Assembly: GCF_028885415.1 (NCBI RefSeq)
Contig: NZ_CP118527.1
Span: 5,518,001-5,582,000, forward strand
Direction: 5' to 3'
Length of the DNA: 64,000 nucleotides
Source: Streptomyces coeruleorubidus
GTDB lineage: Bacteria > Actinomycetota > Actinomycetes > Streptomycetales > Streptomycetaceae
How positions within the stretch are numbered: position 1 is the first letter of the stretch; each line of letters opens with the position of its first letter. Below are positions 44,661 to 51,379 of this stretch, piece after piece. Below the pieces are notes generated by a model. It saw only the letters and a list, made by a program, of their open reading frames with translations. It made no database searches and was not told where the DNA came from. The position numbers and the translations under genes are program-made.

Positions 44661-44688
44661 GCGACGCCGCCCTCGGCACGGGCTCACT

Positions 44689-44837
44689 GAGGCCCGTGCA
44701 TCGTGAAACGTGCAGGTGAGGTGGGCTGGTGTGCGGACGAGTTGCCGTGCTCGTACTGGTCGGCGGCGGGTGTCCATGGTGAAGATCGTCTGCCCTGTCG
44801 GCTGAGGCGGTTCTCGGGTTCCGCTGCGCTCGTCGCG
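44689..44837 (+). repeat. Left 149-bp IS end
   Basis: This stretch matches the reverse complement of 51160-51308 with about three mismatches by eye, and the match stops sharply at 44837. It contains the terminal inverted repeat and the likely promoter-proximal part of the IS. Confidence 0.9.
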
Positions 44838-44899
44838 GGACCGCTCCTACGATCCGTGACCGGGGCGGTACGCGGTGGGATCGCGGGAGGGTGCAGGGT

Positions 44900-45355
44900 A
44901 TGAGAGACCTGGAGCGGATCATCGCTCGCCGGAGCGAACTGGACGCGCTCGCCGAGGGGTTGGCCAAGCAGCTGCAGGAGGTCCAGGCCGAGCGGGAGGA
45001 ACTGCTGGTCGCCGAGCGGGTCCTGAACCGGCTGGCCGAGCGGGACCGGGCCGAAGCGGAGACAGCCGTGGTCGCCTCACCGGTGCCCGCCCGGGTGGCG
45101 GGAAGGGCGGTCCTGTTGATCCCGCACCGCGGCGAGGTCCTTGACGAGGCCGCGCTGCCCGCCGATTACCGCAAGATCCTGGCGATCGTGCGGGCCGAGG
45201 ACGGCCCGGTGCAGGTCAGGGCGGTGGGCGAGGAGATGGGACTTGAGGTGGCGGTGCGCGGGAAGCTGGAACCGCTGCGGGCGAAGATGACCAAGCTCGC
45301 CGATCGTGGCTGGCTGCACAAACGACCCGACGGACGGTTCACCGCCCGCCGGTAG
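44900..45355 (+). CDS. IS accessory protein, coiled coil plus winged-helix-like domain
   Basis: The 151-residue product begins MRDLERIIARRSELDALAEG. Residues 1-60 form a charged coiled coil and the C-terminal half (RKILAIVRAEDGPVQVRAVG...ADRGWLHKRPDGRFTARR) resembles a winged helix. It lies inside the IS, upstream of the transposase gene in the same direction. I recall similar proteins beside Streptomyces transposases; a role in regulating or targeting transposition is inference. The ATG at 44900 has GGGAGG nine bases upstream. Confidence 0.75.
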   Translation: MRDLERIIARRSELDALAEGLAKQLQEVQAEREELLVAERVLNRLAERDRAEAETAVVASPVPARVAGRAVLLIPHRGEVLDEAALPADYRKILAIVRAEDGPVQVRAVGEEMGLEVAVRGKLEPLRAKMTKLADRGWLHKRPDGRFTARR

Positions 45356-45418
45356 CCACACCGGGACCGGAGAGCCGGGGCGTAACCGGCGGGCCCCCGA
45401 CGGCAGGTGACGTGTTTT

Positions 45419-46258
45419 GTGAAGAACAACCCCAGCCCCGTCGAGGGCCCTGACGACCTTGTCTACACCGCCCGCCTGCCGCTGTCGAGCGCCACCCTGA
45501 ACTACCTCGCCACCGTGATACGCGGCCACCTGAAGAAGATCGGCTCGCGGTGGCGGGCCCTGCCCGCGGGGAAGATCGCCGGCATCGTGCTGGCGGTGCT
45601 GCGCTGTGACCAGCGCCCCGGCGACCTCGCCGGCGGGAACGGAGTGCACCGCACCACCGTCACCCGGTGGGTACGCGAGGCCGTCGGCCTGCTCGCCGCC
45701 CGCGCCCCGCGCCTGGACCGCGCGCTCAAGAAGATCGCCCGGACGGGTGGCGGGGTGGTCCTCCTCGACGGCACCCTGATACGGACCCGGCGGCGCACCG
45801 GCACGGCGAACCGGAAGAACTGCTCCGGCAAGCACAAGTGCCATGGCCTGCTGGTGATCGCGCTCACCGACGACCGGGGCCGCCTGCTGTGGGTCTCGGC
45901 GGCCCGCCCTGGACGATCCTCGGAGATCACCGCCTGCCGCCACGACCTGCTCACCGCGAAACTGCGGGCGGCCGGGCTCGGCGCCATCGCCGACCTGGGC
46001 TTCGTCGGCCTCGACGACAGCGGCCCGGACATCGACCCAGCGGTGATCACCGGCTACAAAGCCGCCCGCAACCGGCCCCTGACCCGAGGGCAGAAACTGT
46101 CCAACAAGGCGCTCGCCGCCGTCCGGGCGCCGGTCGAGCACGGCTTCGCCCATCTCAAGAACTGGCGGGTCCTCGGCAAGGTCCGCACCGACCCAAAGTG
46201 GGCAACAACCCTGGTCAGGGCCCTGCTGGTCCTGACGAACCGCGAAGTCTCCCGCTGA
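45419..46258 (+). CDS. IS5-family DDE transposase
   Basis: The 279-residue product has an N-terminal HTH (GDLAGGNGVHRTTVTRWVRE) and the DDE_Tnp_4 catalytic set: Asp in VVLLDGTLIRTRRR, Asp in AIADLGFVGLDD and Glu in APVEHGFAHLKNWRVL. It appears intact and should be active on the two IS ends. The GTG at 45419 is preferred; a GTG at 45407 is also in frame. Confidence 0.92.
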   Translation: MKNNPSPVEGPDDLVYTARLPLSSATLNYLATVIRGHLKKIGSRWRALPAGKIAGIVLAVLRCDQRPGDLAGGNGVHRTTVTRWVREAVGLLAARAPRLDRALKKIARTGGGVVLLDGTLIRTRRRTGTANRKNCSGKHKCHGLLVIALTDDRGRLLWVSAARPGRSSEITACRHDLLTAKLRAAGLGAIADLGFVGLDDSGPDIDPAVITGYKAARNRPLTRGQKLSNKALAAVRAPVEHGFAHLKNWRVLGKVRTDPKWATTLVRALLVLTNREVSR

Positions 46259-46449
46259 CCGACGATCTTCACCGAAGTCACCCACCCGCGACCAGCCCGA
46301 GCATCGAGAACCCCGCGCACACCAGAACCGTGACCTGCAACTTCACGATGCACACTGCTCACTGGTGGCCACTGTCACCCCAGATGCCTATGACGGCATG
46401 GGGTCGGCGTCATGGATCTGAATCGCTGACGTGCCGGACTTCGATCACG

Positions 46450-46476
46450 GGGGAGGAGCGCAGTTCGCTCCTCCCC
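46450..46476. terminator. Hairpin downstream of the SARP-type gene
   Basis: ggggaggagcg (46450-46460) and cgctcctcccc (46466-46476) form a perfect 11-bp stem with loop cagtt, 30 bases beyond the SARP stop and 90 bases beyond the IS end. It can stop transcription from both sides. Confidence 0.85.
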
Positions 46477-46505
46477 GATCCGAACCCTGCCGGACCGCGA
46501 CTCCA

Positions 46506-49500
46506 TCAAGTTCGGGTGTCAGAGGTTGCTGTGCTGGAAGCCCTTGACGACGGCCTCGGCGCCGAGAGGCAGTGGTGCCCGTTGGCCCTCGCCTGCACCT
46601 CGTCGGCCTGCGGCATGCCCAGCTCCCGGTAGATCACCAGCGCCTGCTGCCAGAAATCGCGGCTCACCTCGTGCTCGCCGAGTGCGGCGTGGATGTCACC
46701 GATGCCCGCAAGCGCGTGGGCCCGAAGGTCGCGTTGACCAGACCCGACATCCACGTTCAGCGCCTCCTCGTGGAGCCTGAGCGCCTCGCTCGGGTTCCCC
46801 GCAGCAGCGTGCGCCTCGGCCAGCGCGCTGAGCGTTGCCATGACCTCCTCCAGGTCGCCCACGCCCTGAGAGATCTGCAGTGCGGTGTCGAGACGGCGTA
46901 TCGCCGACTCGTGATCCCCCTGGCAGCGGTGCACGACGCCGAGCGTCCGCATGGCGGTGCCTTCGAGGCTGCGGTGACCGGCGTTGCGCGCCTTCGCCAG
47001 GGCACGATGCGCGTAGTCCAGCGCCTCTCGGTGACGACCGGCCGCGGCGTTCACTTCCGCCAGACCGCACAGCGTGTTCGCCTCGCTCCCTCGGTTCCCG
47101 TTCTCTCGCGCGATGGCCAGCGCCTGCTCGAACAGTTCGAGTGCCTCGTCGGACCTGCCCAGGATGTGCAGGATACGTGCGAGGTTGTTCGTGGCCGGCG
47201 CGCGCATGCGCTGGTGGACGCTGAACTCCTGGTAGAGGGCCAGAGCCTGGCGGAAGCAGTCCGCTGCCGCGACCAGGTTCGACCGCCGCCAGTTCCCGAC
47301 GCCGAGGTTGTTCAGGGTCGCTGCCTGCAATGATCGGTCGCCGACCTGCCGGTACAGGGCCAGTGCCCGCTCCAGGTGAGCGACCGCCGGTGATACGGCT
47401 CCCGTCCTGAGTGCCGCAGCCCCGAGTACCCGCCGGGCATTGGCCTCGGCCTTGACGTCGCCCAGAGCCTCGGCGGCATGGAGTGCGCGTGTATGCAACA
47501 CCATGGCGTCGTCGTGGTATCCGCCGATGTTGAGGTAGCGCCACACCGTGTCGGACATCCTGATCACGTAGTCCGGCTCGGCGTGTTGTGTGGCGACGAG
47601 CAGGTGGGTGCGTTCGCTGTCCAGCCAGCCGAACGCCGCGTGGTAGTCGCCGAATGCCGGTGTCTCGGCGTCCGGCGCGGGGACATCGGGCCGGCGTTCG
47701 GCCTCGTGCGGGACGATGGCGTCCATGGCGGCGGCCGCGGTGGCGAGGTAATAGTCGAACAGCCGGGTCAGCGGTCCCGTGTCGTCGCCGGCGGTCTCGG
47801 CAAGCTCGGCGGCGTAGACACGCAGCAGGTCGTGCAGCTGGTAGCGGCCGCCGGGAGTCTGCTCCACGAGGTGGGCACGGACCAGCACGTCGAGCGCCTT
47901 GCGCGTGTCCCGCAGCCCGGTCCCGGTCATCGCCGCCACCGCGTAGGCGTCCATGCCGTGTCCGGGATGCACGCCGAGCAGCCGGAAGGCCCGCGCCACG
48001 GGCGGGGCGAGCTGCCGGTACGACCAGGAGAACACCGCGCGCACCGCCGTCTGCGGGTCTCCCTCGACCTCCAGCAGGTCCAGGGCGGCCTGCTCGGCCA
48101 GCTCCTCGGCCAGGTCGCCGATGGTACGGGCCGGTCGTGAACGGACCAGTTCCGCCGCGATCCGCAGGACCAGCGGCAGTCTTGCGCACCGCTCGACCAA
48201 GGAGTCGATCGCGGCCGGTTCGGTGTCGGCGTACGCGCCGAGCAACGTGCGCAGCAGGCCGGCGGCATCGGCCTGCGGCAGCCGGTCGAGCCCGATGCGG
48301 TGCGCGCCCTCTCTGGCGACGAGCCCGGCCAGCGATTCACGACTGGTCACCAGGGTGAAGCAGGACATGCCGGCCGGCAGCATCGGGCGTACCTGGTCCA
48401 CGGTACGGGCGTTGTCGAGCAGAACCAGCATCCGGCGCCGGCTGACCAGCGACCGGAAACGGGCCGCGCGCTCGGCGAGATCTTCGGGGATCGCGGCGCC
48501 GTCCAGCCCGAGCGCGCGGAGAAAGCCGGCGAGCGCGTCGGCCGCCGACACCGGGTCGTCCGTGCCGTAGCCACGCAGGTCCACATAGAGCTGGCCGTCC
48601 GGGAAACGGTCGCGCATCCGATGCGCCCACCGCACCGCCAGTGCTGTCTTGCCGACCCCGGCGGTGCCGACCACGATGGCGATGACCGCGGGTGAGCCGG
48701 CGGACAGCAGGCCGTCCAGCTCGTCGAGCTCAGCGTCCCGGCCGACGAAACCCCGGACGTCGAGGGGCAGGTGGGACGGGATCGCGCCGGTGCGGTCGGC
48801 GGCGGCGCCCACGCCGGGCGAGGCAGTGGCAGGTGCAGCTGCCGGTGCCGAAACGACCGCCGGTGGGGGCCCCGGGCGCATGGTGGGGCTCAGCTTCGTG
48901 TCCCCGGCGAGGATTGCCTCGTGCAGCCGCTGCAGGTCACGGCCGGCGTCGACGCCCAACTCCTCGGCGAGGATGCCGCGTACGTGCCGATAGTGGGCGA
49001 GGGCGTCGGCCTGCCGACCGCAGCGGTACAGGGCGAGCATGTATTGCGCGGCCAGCCGCTCGTCCATCGGATGCGCTGCGCAGTGCTCGGCCAGTGTGGC
49101 AAGCAGTGCGGCGTGTTCACCGAACCGCAGCCGCAGGTCGTTGCAGTCCAGTTCGGCCGCCCACCGCTCCTTGCGGAGCGTGTTACGGGCCGTGTTGAAC
49201 CAGGGGGTGTCGGCGCTCGCGAACGGCTCTTCCCGCCACAGTGCCATCGCCTCCTCGAACAGTGCCAGCGCCTGCGCGTCGTCGTCGGCCCGCCGCGCCA
49301 GCACGAGCAGCCGGCGGAACCGGTGCATGTCAACCTGCTGCTCGTCAGCGGTGAGTACGTACCCTCCGCCAGCCCCCCGGGCGATCACCCCCGGCAGGAG
49401 GCGGCGCAGCCGGGACACATACCCGTACAGGGTCTGCGTGGCACGCAGCGGTGGCTTGTCCCCCCACACCCGGTGCACGAGCTGTTCGACCGTCACCGGC

Positions 49501-49613
49501 CGGTTGACGTCCACGAGAAGAGCAGCCAGCACCGTCTGCTGCCGGGCAGGCCCGAGCTCGACCGGTCCGGTCGCCGTCCGTGCCTCAACACCGCCCAGCA
49601 GCCGAAACTCCAT
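46506..49613 (-). CDS. AfsR-like SARP-NB-ARC-TPR transcriptional activator
   Basis: From the ATG at 49613 the product is 1035 residues. Residues 1-95 are the SARP winged helix (MEFRLLGGVEARTATGPVEL), 100-245 the BTAD domain, then an NB-ARC ATPase with Walker A GTAGVGKT (Lys322) and LVLLDNARTVDQV, and a C-terminal TPR region. AfsR/GlnR-like STAND regulators activate target genes when a signal triggers ATP-driven assembly. It is divergent from two small secreted-protein genes. The last 15-20 residues look unlike a SARP end; another frame ends AEAVVKGFQHSNL at 46519, so a terminal frameshift is possible. Confidence 0.92.
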   Translation of the reverse strand: MEFRLLGGVEARTATGPVELGPARQQTVLAALLVDVNRPVTVEQLVHRVWGDKPPLRATQTLYGYVSRLRRLLPGVIARGAGGGYVLTADEQQVDMHRFRRLLVLARRADDDAQALALFEEAMALWREEPFASADTPWFNTARNTLRKERWAAELDCNDLRLRFGEHAALLATLAEHCAAHPMDERLAAQYMLALYRCGRQADALAHYRHVRGILAEELGVDAGRDLQRLHEAILAGDTKLSPTMRPGPPPAVVSAPAAAPATASPGVGAAADRTGAIPSHLPLDVRGFVGRDAELDELDGLLSAGSPAVIAIVVGTAGVGKTALAVRWAHRMRDRFPDGQLYVDLRGYGTDDPVSAADALAGFLRALGLDGAAIPEDLAERAARFRSLVSRRRMLVLLDNARTVDQVRPMLPAGMSCFTLVTSRESLAGLVAREGAHRIGLDRLPQADAAGLLRTLLGAYADTEPAAIDSLVERCARLPLVLRIAAELVRSRPARTIGDLAEELAEQAALDLLEVEGDPQTAVRAVFSWSYRQLAPPVARAFRLLGVHPGHGMDAYAVAAMTGTGLRDTRKALDVLVRAHLVEQTPGGRYQLHDLLRVYAAELAETAGDDTGPLTRLFDYYLATAAAAMDAIVPHEAERRPDVPAPDAETPAFGDYHAAFGWLDSERTHLLVATQHAEPDYVIRMSDTVWRYLNIGGYHDDAMVLHTRALHAAEALGDVKAEANARRVLGAAALRTGAVSPAVAHLERALALYRQVGDRSLQAATLNNLGVGNWRRSNLVAAADCFRQALALYQEFSVHQRMRAPATNNLARILHILGRSDEALELFEQALAIARENGNRGSEANTLCGLAEVNAAAGRHREALDYAHRALAKARNAGHRSLEGTAMRTLGVVHRCQGDHESAIRRLDTALQISQGVGDLEEVMATLSALAEAHAAAGNPSEALRLHEEALNVDVGSGQRDLRAHALAGIGDIHAALGEHEVSRDFWQQALVIYRELGMPQADEVQARANGHHCLSAPRPSSRASSTATSDTRT

Positions 49614-49667
49614 ACCCAGCCCCCGCCTGTGCCGCTCGGCCGCAGACACGGCCGTACCTGTGGATTC

Positions 49668-49711
49668 TAGGTTCCCTGCAGGGTTGTTGCACGACGGCTC
49701 GTCAGGGTTGT
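49668..49711. promoter_or_regulatory. Direct repeats in the SARP/secreted-protein divergent promoter
   Basis: cagggttgt occurs at 49679-49687 and 49703-49711, 24 bases apart, about two helix turns. SARP regulators bind direct repeats spaced by about one or two turns. taggttccc (49668-49676) precedes them and recurs at 50329-50337, before the second secreted-protein gene, close to a reversed caaccctg (50313-50320). These are candidate binding sites for the SARP-type protein. Confidence 0.5.
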
Positions 49712-49756
49712 ACCTGCCGCCGCGGACACCGGCAGCCGTCCATGTCCTGCCTGACC

Positions 49757-49768
49757 GGGGGGGGGGGG
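49757..49768. repeat. Twelve-guanine homopolymer
   Basis: A run of 12 G lies 63 bases upstream of the first secreted-protein start, in the divergent promoter. Runs this long are slippage-prone and can switch promoter spacing. The exact length may also be a sequencing uncertainty. Confidence 0.85.
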
Positions 49769-49831
49769 CAGGCAGGCCCGCGTGCCCGCGCGGCACGTAC
49801 TCAGTGGACAAGGCCGAGGAGTTGATTCGTT

Positions 49832-50242
49832 GTGCGTGCTCAAGTGAAGGTGGCCAAGCGGATGGCCGTTGTGGCGACAGCGGCTGCCGCGCTCACCGCT
49901 GCTGGGCTGGCCACCGCCCCCACCGCCTCGGCCGGGGACTACAACGGGTGCGGCTGGCCTCGCGTCTGCTTCTACCTGACCAACAGTGACTGGAACAACG
50001 GCCGGCCCACGGCCGCGTACCAGGACGTCACCAGCTCCTACCAGGACCTCGGATCCAAGAGCTACGGCGCCAACTATGTCCGGAACACCCGCAACGACGA
50101 CCGGGTCTACCTGCGCGTCTACGACAAGTACAGCGTGACCTACTACTGGTGCCTGCCCCCCAACAGTACGTTCCACTTCAGCGACGACGTCAGGGTGAGC
50201 GGCATCAAGATCCAGACCCAGTCCACCTGCCCCTCGACCTGA
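49832..50242 (+). CDS. Small secreted beta/gamma-crystallin or I36-inhibitor-like protein
   Basis: The 136-residue product starts at a GTG with GAGGAG eleven bases upstream. A signal peptide (MAVVATAAAALTAAGLATAP, cleaved near TASA-GD) is followed by a domain of about 100 residues with four cysteines. Parts such as CGWPRVCFYLTNSDWNNGRP and YQDLGSKSYG follow the beta/gamma-crystallin pattern shared by Streptomyces peptidase inhibitors of family I36. It could inhibit a protease or act as a secreted structural protein. It is divergent from the SARP-type gene, its probable activator. Confidence 0.78.
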   Translation: MRAQVKVAKRMAVVATAAAALTAAGLATAPTASAGDYNGCGWPRVCFYLTNSDWNNGRPTAAYQDVTSSYQDLGSKSYGANYVRNTRNDDRVYLRVYDKYSVTYYWCLPPNSTFHFSDDVRVSGIKIQTQSTCPST

Positions 50243-50298
50243 AACTCACGCTCCACAAAGCCCGGGGCTTGACACCCTCGGGCTGCCCGACTGTCAAA

Positions 50299-50313
50299 GA
50301 GCCCTCGGGGCTC
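50299..50313. other. Short hairpin between the two secreted-protein genes
   Basis: gagccc-tcg-gggctc is a perfect 6-bp stem with a 3-base loop, 57 bases after the first secreted-protein stop. No T-run follows, so it may only partly terminate and let transcription reach the next gene. Confidence 0.5.
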
Positions 50314-50414
50314 AACCCTGAATGGTTGTAGGTTCCCAGTGCGCCGAAAGACCTTCAGGCTGTCCAGACACACCTGCCGCACCCGCGGCGCGCACACAAT
50401 CCATGGGGGAGCAC

Positions 50415-50951
50415 GTGAAGAAGAAGATCCTTGCCAGCCTTGCCGTCCTGGGTATTGCGCTGACCGCATCCACTGTTCCTGCCGAGGCCAAGACATCGGA
50501 CGGATGGATCCGCGGATACGACGGGTACGGCGACGATCTGGACGACGAGGGGATGCTCAACACGTACACCTTCGAGAACTCCAACGCCACCTGCTTCTGG
50601 CAGAAGATCCTGTGGGCCATGGGAGCCGAGTACGACAGGGACGGCAGCAAGTTCACGTACAGGATGGCCGACGGCATCTTCGGCCCGAAGACAGCGCAGG
50701 CGACCAAGGACCTGAACTACCGGATTCGGAAGGTGAGCAGCTCCGACGCCACCAAGGAAATCTTCTACTACATGGGAAATCGACTCGTGAAGACCGGCGG
50801 TTCGACCGCTCGCGGCAAGGATCTGTACCTGGAGTTCCGGGGCGAATCCTACACATTCAGGATCAAGCGGAACTCGGAAGGCAAGTACACCTTCGACGAC
50901 CGGAACGGGAATCACGTACAGGCGGGATACCGCTACCGGACCTGCCAGTAG
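50415..50951 (+). CDS. Small secreted protein with peptidoglycan-binding-like domain
   Basis: The 178-residue product begins VKKKILASLAVLGIALTA, a clear signal peptide ending VPAEA-K. The middle has CFWQKILWAMGAEY followed by MADGIFGPKTAQATKDLN, the WQ...DGxFGxxT pattern of PG_binding_1 domains. The rest (residues about 110-178) is not recognised. There is no catalytic domain, so it may bind cell wall or carry an unknown activity. An ATG at 50403 is in frame 12 bases upstream; both starts keep the signal peptide. It lies 172 bases after the crystallin-like gene. Confidence 0.75.
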   Translation: MKKKILASLAVLGIALTASTVPAEAKTSDGWIRGYDGYGDDLDDEGMLNTYTFENSNATCFWQKILWAMGAEYDRDGSKFTYRMADGIFGPKTAQATKDLNYRIRKVSSSDATKEIFYYMGNRLVKTGGSTARGKDLYLEFRGESYTFRIKRNSEGKYTFDDRNGNHVQAGYRYRTCQ

Positions 50952-50964
50952 TCCGCCGACAGGG

Positions 50965-51160
50965 CTACAGCAGATGATCGGCCCTGCCCGCCTTGATCTC
51001 CGTGATCAGGACGCGCAGGGCCTCGCTGCTGTCGGTGAGGTGCACGTCGTCCTGCCCGGCGGCGGCGATGCAGCCGTTGTGATCTGACGCGACCGGGACT
51101 GCGGCCCCGCGGATGGCCCGGTGAGGGTTGGCGTCCGCCCATTCCGCTGCAGCTCGGCGC
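50965..51160 (-). pseudogene. 3' fragment of an unidentified gene cut by the IS end
   Basis: A reverse-strand frame reads about 65 residues, ending SSEALRVLITEIKAGRADHL before a TAG at 50965, and runs straight into the IS end without its own start. The tail loosely recalls DUF397 C-termini but is too short to assign. It looks like the remnant of a gene truncated when the IS end arrived or was deleted. Confidence 0.5.
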
Positions 51161-51308
51161 GCGACGAGCGCAGCGGAACCCGAGAACCGTCTCAGCCGAC
51201 AGGGCAGACGATCTTCACCATGGACACCCGCCGCCGACCAGTACGAGCACGGCAACTCGCCCGCACACCATCCCACCTCACCTGCACGTTTCACGATGCA
51301 CGGGCCTC
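51160..51308 (-). repeat. Right, solo 149-bp IS end (inverted)
   Basis: It is an inverted near-copy of 44689-44837. The reading frame on it, WCAGELPCSYWSAAGVHGED, differs by one residue from that on the left copy. No accessory or transposase gene follows it, so it is a remnant of a second IS copy or an end captured by recombination. Confidence 0.9.
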
Positions 51309-51379
51309 ACTGTGGGACCACCGGGGCAGCCGCGGAGCCTTCGGACCTCCATCACCGCGTCCCGCAGAGGCGATTGACC

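Follow-up and report, generated by a model that had tools for sequence, protein, structure and literature searches.

A putative composite transposon of Streptomyces with one insertion sequence reduced to its outer end

Organization of the 6.6-kb block

The window, which is the whole 64,000-nucleotide stretch of DNA analysed here, belongs to a host genome consisting of a single 9.41-Mb contig; the relatives and the cargo matches described below are all from Streptomyces. A block between positions 44689 and 51308 is bounded by inverted copies of one sequence, 44689-44837 and 51160-51308. These are identical in 146 of 149 positions, the three differences being the number that an earlier sequence-only reading had estimated by eye. 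A repeat search gave the arms as 44685-44837 and 51160-51312 with a complementarity of 97%.

As that reading had proposed, the two copies stand in different settings. The left copy is the beginning of a complete IS5-type insertion sequence (IS) of 1672 bp (44689-46360, plus strand), the two ends of which resemble each other for about 110 bp (79 of 113 aligned columns). The right copy (51160-51308, minus strand) is a solo inverted left end of 149 bp, here called the stump. The same IS is therefore found at both outer ends of the block, and both outer tips are IS left ends having the same tip in inverted orientation. The trinucleotide ACT adjoins the block on the left (44686-44688) and on the right (51309-51311), and is also present at the inner tip of the complete IS (46361-46363, read from the window letters), so that all three of the ACT borders noticed earlier are in place. 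The inner ACT is probably a relic of the insertion of the IS in a donor.

Between the IS and the stump lie a regulator gene, two genes for small proteins and, immediately inside the stump, the end piece of a further gene (50965-51159, minus strand), which has DNA relatives in many Streptomyces and is cut where the stump starts. The two small genes have a GC content of 62%, versus 73-74% in the flanks. A run of 12 G (49757-49768), possibly a slippage-prone stretch, is situated upstream of the first small-protein gene.

The insertion sequence

The complete IS has two open reading frames on the plus strand. The first, orf1 (44891-45355), encodes 154 amino acids and matches no Pfam family; it is uninterrupted over nearly its full length in 11 of the 17 other loci scanned. 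The second (45407-46258) encodes a 283-residue transposase of the DDE_Tnp_4 family (PF13359), scoring 68.5 bits against a cut-off of 24.8. The IS5 model is the top match of this protein in the NCBIfam library, at 69.4 bits, which is below the cut-off of 140.

The full IS is present once in its own genome (12 matches, with the best 40 of 546 candidates scored). The other matches in this search are the stump, at 98% (E 1.4e-67), two pieces at 4.47 Mb that belong to a diverged relative (85% and 75% identical), and short stretches.

Members of the ISL2 group of the IS5 family generate a 3-bp target duplication of the form ANT. Among nine single full copies of the IS, matching 3-bp ANT duplications are found in five (one each in genomes G255, G283 and G254, and two in G024) and are lacking in four (G333, G155, G203 and G297). 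L143, L148, L149 and L162, where one end is missing or degenerate, were left out of this count. Relatives of the IS were sought with the best two candidates scored per genome, and the counts are lower bounds.

Cargo genes

The cargo had been described as an AfsR-like regulator accompanied by two secreted proteins, and this description is borne out by the domains of the regulator and by the signal-like N-termini of both small proteins. Start codons of the cargo genes were chosen by us. The regulator (46506-49613, minus strand) is an AfsR/SARP-like protein of 1035 residues with Trans_reg_C, BTAD and NB-ARC domains and TPR repeats; it scores 521.9 bits with the NCBI AfsR model, well under the cut-off of 1430. 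AfsR-like regulators steer development and antibiotic production in Streptomyces.

The first small gene (49832-50242, plus strand) encodes 136 residues. This protein has 73 relatives, some of them labelled by a source as peptidase inhibitor family I36, and a protein search found a relative in S. chartreusis at 89%. The second (50415-50951, plus strand) encodes 178 residues and has five relatives among the matches listed, all from Streptomyces, which are labelled peptidoglycan-binding-domain protein or Tat pathway signal protein; a relative in Streptomyces sp. ISL-14 was found by protein search at 87%. A comparison with solved structures gave no convincing match for either small protein, and a PADLOC search for a role in defence gave a general TPR match only.

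The empty site

Searches with the flanks of the block in 295 genomes of the genus show that the left and right flanks adjoin in the best relatives. In genome G182, the best-matching relative, the two flank matches overlap by 3 bp, positions 4942172-4942174, which read ACT. The alignment has CACT followed by GTGGGACC, identical to the joined window, and CACT followed by GTGGG is what had been predicted. Four of nine relatives lay in the wrong orientation in the empty-site alignment and were excluded from counting; another alignment, with three of seven relatives wrongly oriented, was discarded as a whole.

The flanks joined with a single ACT were also used as a query against 20 genomes, comprising 18 from the best matches together with S. 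olindensis and S. indicus. The alignment runs unbroken over the junction in 19 of them; S. indicus gives weak partial matches only (68% over the first 139 bases). Among the 19 empty sites CACTGTGG is found in G182 only, most of the others having ACG, ACC or AGG-like sequences at this position. The empty site with a single ACT joining 44688 to 51309, which the sequence-only reading had proposed to look for, is thus seen in G182. Neither the cargo genes at this place without IS ends nor a site that does not join at ACT was seen in the 19 genomes having the locus.

Because the joined flanks align in 19 of 20 genomes and G182 has a single ACT where the window has ACT on both sides of the whole unit, the genome comparison shows that 44689-51308 was inserted at one target, in one piece, at an ACT that was duplicated over 3 bp.

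The stump at a second site and the source of the cargo

A scan for the 136-aa protein, using one genome per species and reaching only close relatives, found two loci. One contig of S. olindensis (JJOH01000100.1) matches window positions 49890-51312 at about 97.6-97.7%. Its stump has the same inner break and the same outer tip as the stump of the window, and beyond the tip the DNA is unrelated to the window flank. On the left the match ends at 49890, adjoining another transposase gene, which we take to be IS1182-like. Since this copy is without its left half, its duplication is unreadable. The S. olindensis site orthologous to that of the window is empty. Neither a complete IS nor a close regulator was found in this genome among the best 40 of 797 candidates scored, and a search with the right flank of the copy gave no empty site, the long matches shown beginning at least 35 bases inside. 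The region of the 136-aa gene has an 83% relative on the same contig. Beside the stump (L159:4792-8980) are integrase-like genes, similar to ones annotated on plasmids of actinobacteria, and these neighbors place the S. olindensis unit in an accessory region.

The end of the complete IS in the window shows three differences from its own stump and one from that of S. olindensis, none being shared. Because S. olindensis has the same inner break elsewhere and an empty orthologous site, the stump was probably truncated before the insertion in the window, as judged from these alignments. The expectation that the same cargo would be found elsewhere between two such ends held in part: the cargo does lie beside the same stump in S. 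olindensis, but a second copy with both ends was not found.

The regulator and both small genes are present in the same order in S. indicus (NZ_FNFF01000001.1), where they match the window from 46561 to 50958 at 92.7% and 91.1%. They sit at a locus other than the one orthologous to the window site. The 20-kb cargo locus has no IS match, so that the cargo is found here without the IS; an 80% relative of the IS is situated on another contig. It is plausible that the S. indicus cargo represents the source of that in the window. When 49612-51159, a segment outside the body of the regulator, was searched for in 295 genomes with the best two candidates each, a full-length match was obtained in its own genome only; the best other matches covered 261 bp at 81% and about 400 bp at 73%.

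Taken with the empty site and the second site, this likely source suggests that an AfsR-like regulator and two small proteins of secreted type have traveled between Streptomyces as an IS-ended unit, the block carrying its cargo outside any resistance setting.

A second unit with SnoaL-like and TetR-type cargo

A similar arrangement is found with other cargo. In genome G312 (L155:3248-6471) a 3224-bp block has AGT on both sides; it combines the IS left end and the IS genes with genes for a SnoaL-like protein and a TetR-type regulator, and is completed by about 350 bp of an IS left end in inverted orientation. The inner end of the IS is unmatched in this block. The unit also occurs in L150, L195 and others. 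In a search of 295 genomes its cargo was matched in nine, at 10 places in all, with a minimum of 1038 of 1211 bases aligned at 85% or more; among these genomes are G311 and G346, where it is without an IS part in the stretch examined.

Three copies have both outer ends. Their flanking trinucleotides are AGT/AGT in G312, ATT/ATT in G325 and ACT/ACA in G186, matching in two of the three. No single open frame spans the transposase in the copies of G312 and G325. The two units together have 10 right tips, followed by 10 mutually unrelated 1-kb flanks, nine of which start with ANT; the exception is G186.

Two types of cargo have so far been found in a build with two left ends. A scan of 30 genomes (best 24 candidates each, part of the pairs inspected) for left ends gave no clear third cargo in such a build; the left ends of the IS are similar to its right ends. 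Among plasmid records none has 80% of the window unit, of the second unit or of the cargo in one place.

Origin and movement of the block

We consider it highly probable that 44689-51308 represents a composite transposon whose right-hand IS was reduced to its outer 149 bp, and which was moved by its outer ends. That one of two IS copies had lost its inside was the suggestion of the sequence-only reading; the empty site, the stump in S. olindensis and the IS-free cargo in S. indicus now speak for it on comparative grounds. Further support comes from the open transposase frame with its DDE domain, from the ANT duplications at five single IS copies and from the independent SnoaL/TetR unit with the ANT starts of its flanks. 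On the other side stand the four single IS copies and the G186 unit with unmatched trinucleotides, the left-truncated copy of S. olindensis, and the letters other than ACT at most of the empty sites. Two copies of the IS would once have flanked the cargo, the right-hand one then shrinking to its outer 149 bp. The transposase would come from the complete left IS; it presumably recognizes the two nearly identical outer left ends and mobilizes the intervening DNA, with a 3-bp duplication (ANT) of the target. Since the stump retains the whole stretch of about 110 bp over which the IS ends are similar, both outer ends are expected to be functional. The unit may still be mobile.

The ACT on both sides of the complete IS also fits the insertion of a lone IS; we estimate the chance of a match of this kind at about 1 in 4 for an ANT target. 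The window could accordingly have been built in two events, the IS inserting alone at ACT and 46364-51308, with the stump, arriving beside it later by one-ended transposition. The latter segment is itself flanked by ACT, and in S. olindensis the matches comprise cargo and stump but no complete IS, although the copy there is broken at 49890 and is therefore uninformative about the left end. This course of events is nevertheless quite improbable: the same 3 bp would have to be hit twice, the sequence at the left edge of the segment (46364) is by eye unlike an IS end, and in the second unit the whole block of IS, cargo and stump is found at two sites with matching duplications. Far less probable still, to the point of being negligible, is that the genes were always present at this locus and acquired the IS ends by local insertion, inversion or deletion. 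The flanks are joined in 19 of the 20 genomes queried, S. olindensis included, which would demand many independent clean deletions, and the lower GC content of the two small genes sets them apart from their surroundings. The empty sites argue against a local inversion or deletion as the cause, and no evidence in favor of such an origin was seen.

A further possibility overlaps with the composite transposon: the stump may already be a settled second end, the block having long moved as one, that is, as a unit transposon. The inner break that the stumps of the two species share would agree with this, as would the SnoaL/TetR unit, which is without the inner IS end and has its tips at several unrelated sites. 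We regard it as rather unlikely for the window, where the inner IS end is intact and the IS could therefore still leave alone. In addition, the stump and the IS end are 98% identical, suggesting youth, and this unit is known at two sites only.

Returning to the composite transposon, the single IS, the window unit with its inner IS end intact, and the SnoaL/TetR unit, which has lost that end and could therefore move only as a complete block, may represent stages existing side by side, in which one IS5-type subfamily of Streptomyces repeatedly becomes gene-carrying transposons. We put this forward tentatively, judging it somewhat less probable than its opposite. If true, IS and unit transposon would be connected by a natural series of forms, one that spreads regulators instead of resistance. 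The two units offer material on how an IS becomes a fixed transposon, and movable AfsR-like regulators are of practical interest because of their role in development and antibiotic production.

Comparison with known transposons

Tn5, Tn10 and Tn903 consist of inverted IS copies with alike outer ends and cargo between them, one IS often being defective. The window unit shares the inverted copies, the alike outer ends and the enclosed cargo. However, both IS of these transposons are near full length, whereas the window unit has a second IS of only 149 bp and carries no resistance gene. By the strict definition, which calls for two complete IS copies, the window unit no longer qualifies as a composite transposon, since it has a single complete copy besides the stump of 149 bp, though from its sequence it appears built to work like one.

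In passenger-bearing IS (tIS) the ends are the element's own left and right repeats, whereas both outer ends of the window unit are left ends. A complete IS with extra genes is common to the window unit, tIS and, in the available portion of the source, transposable modules (PMC3281130). Pseudo-compound transposons, as far as the accessible text describes them, likewise have cargo between two IS copies, but these are directly oriented (PMC12561309), in contrast to the inverted ends seen here.

The closest published build among the sources available in part is that of the derivatives of Tn6330 (ISApl1-mcr-1) described by Snesrud, McGann and Chandler, which retain 42 or 90 bp of the downstream ISApl1; several have putative target duplications, at least three of them checked against empty sites, and mobility was inferred, not assayed (PMC5821093). 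Like the window unit, these derivatives have one complete IS, only the outer end of the other, and putative target duplications. They differ in having 2-bp duplications and a resistance gene, as opposed to 3-bp duplications, an IS5-type element with inverted ends, and a regulator with two small proteins. The window unit matches them as a build only, and not as ISApl1 or mcr-1. ISApl1 belongs to the IS30 family. A literature search on titles and the openings of abstracts found no report of the window unit, which does not prove that there is none.

Other arrangements of the insertion sequence

In genome G207 a 9.7-kb block (L143:4370-14100) has two inverted IS copies without inner ends, the outer ends being right ends, flanked by ATT/ATT. 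The gene enclosed encodes a TPR protein of 1648 residues that weakly matches STAND. For this block, a possible third composite, the comparison gives no support for a clean insertion: 9 other genomes of 27 matched the joined flanks, and in none did the match pass the junction. In G294 the bordering trinucleotides are ATT/AAT, which do not match. In G180 (L149:5136-5150) two IS left ends lie head to head with 3 bp between their tips. A plasmid of Streptomyces sp. NBC_01216 (L223, NZ_CP108678.1, 207.5-209.7 kb) has an IS copy with AAT on both sides, in which a 3-oxoacyl-ACP reductase gene occupies the place of orf1 in the opposite direction.
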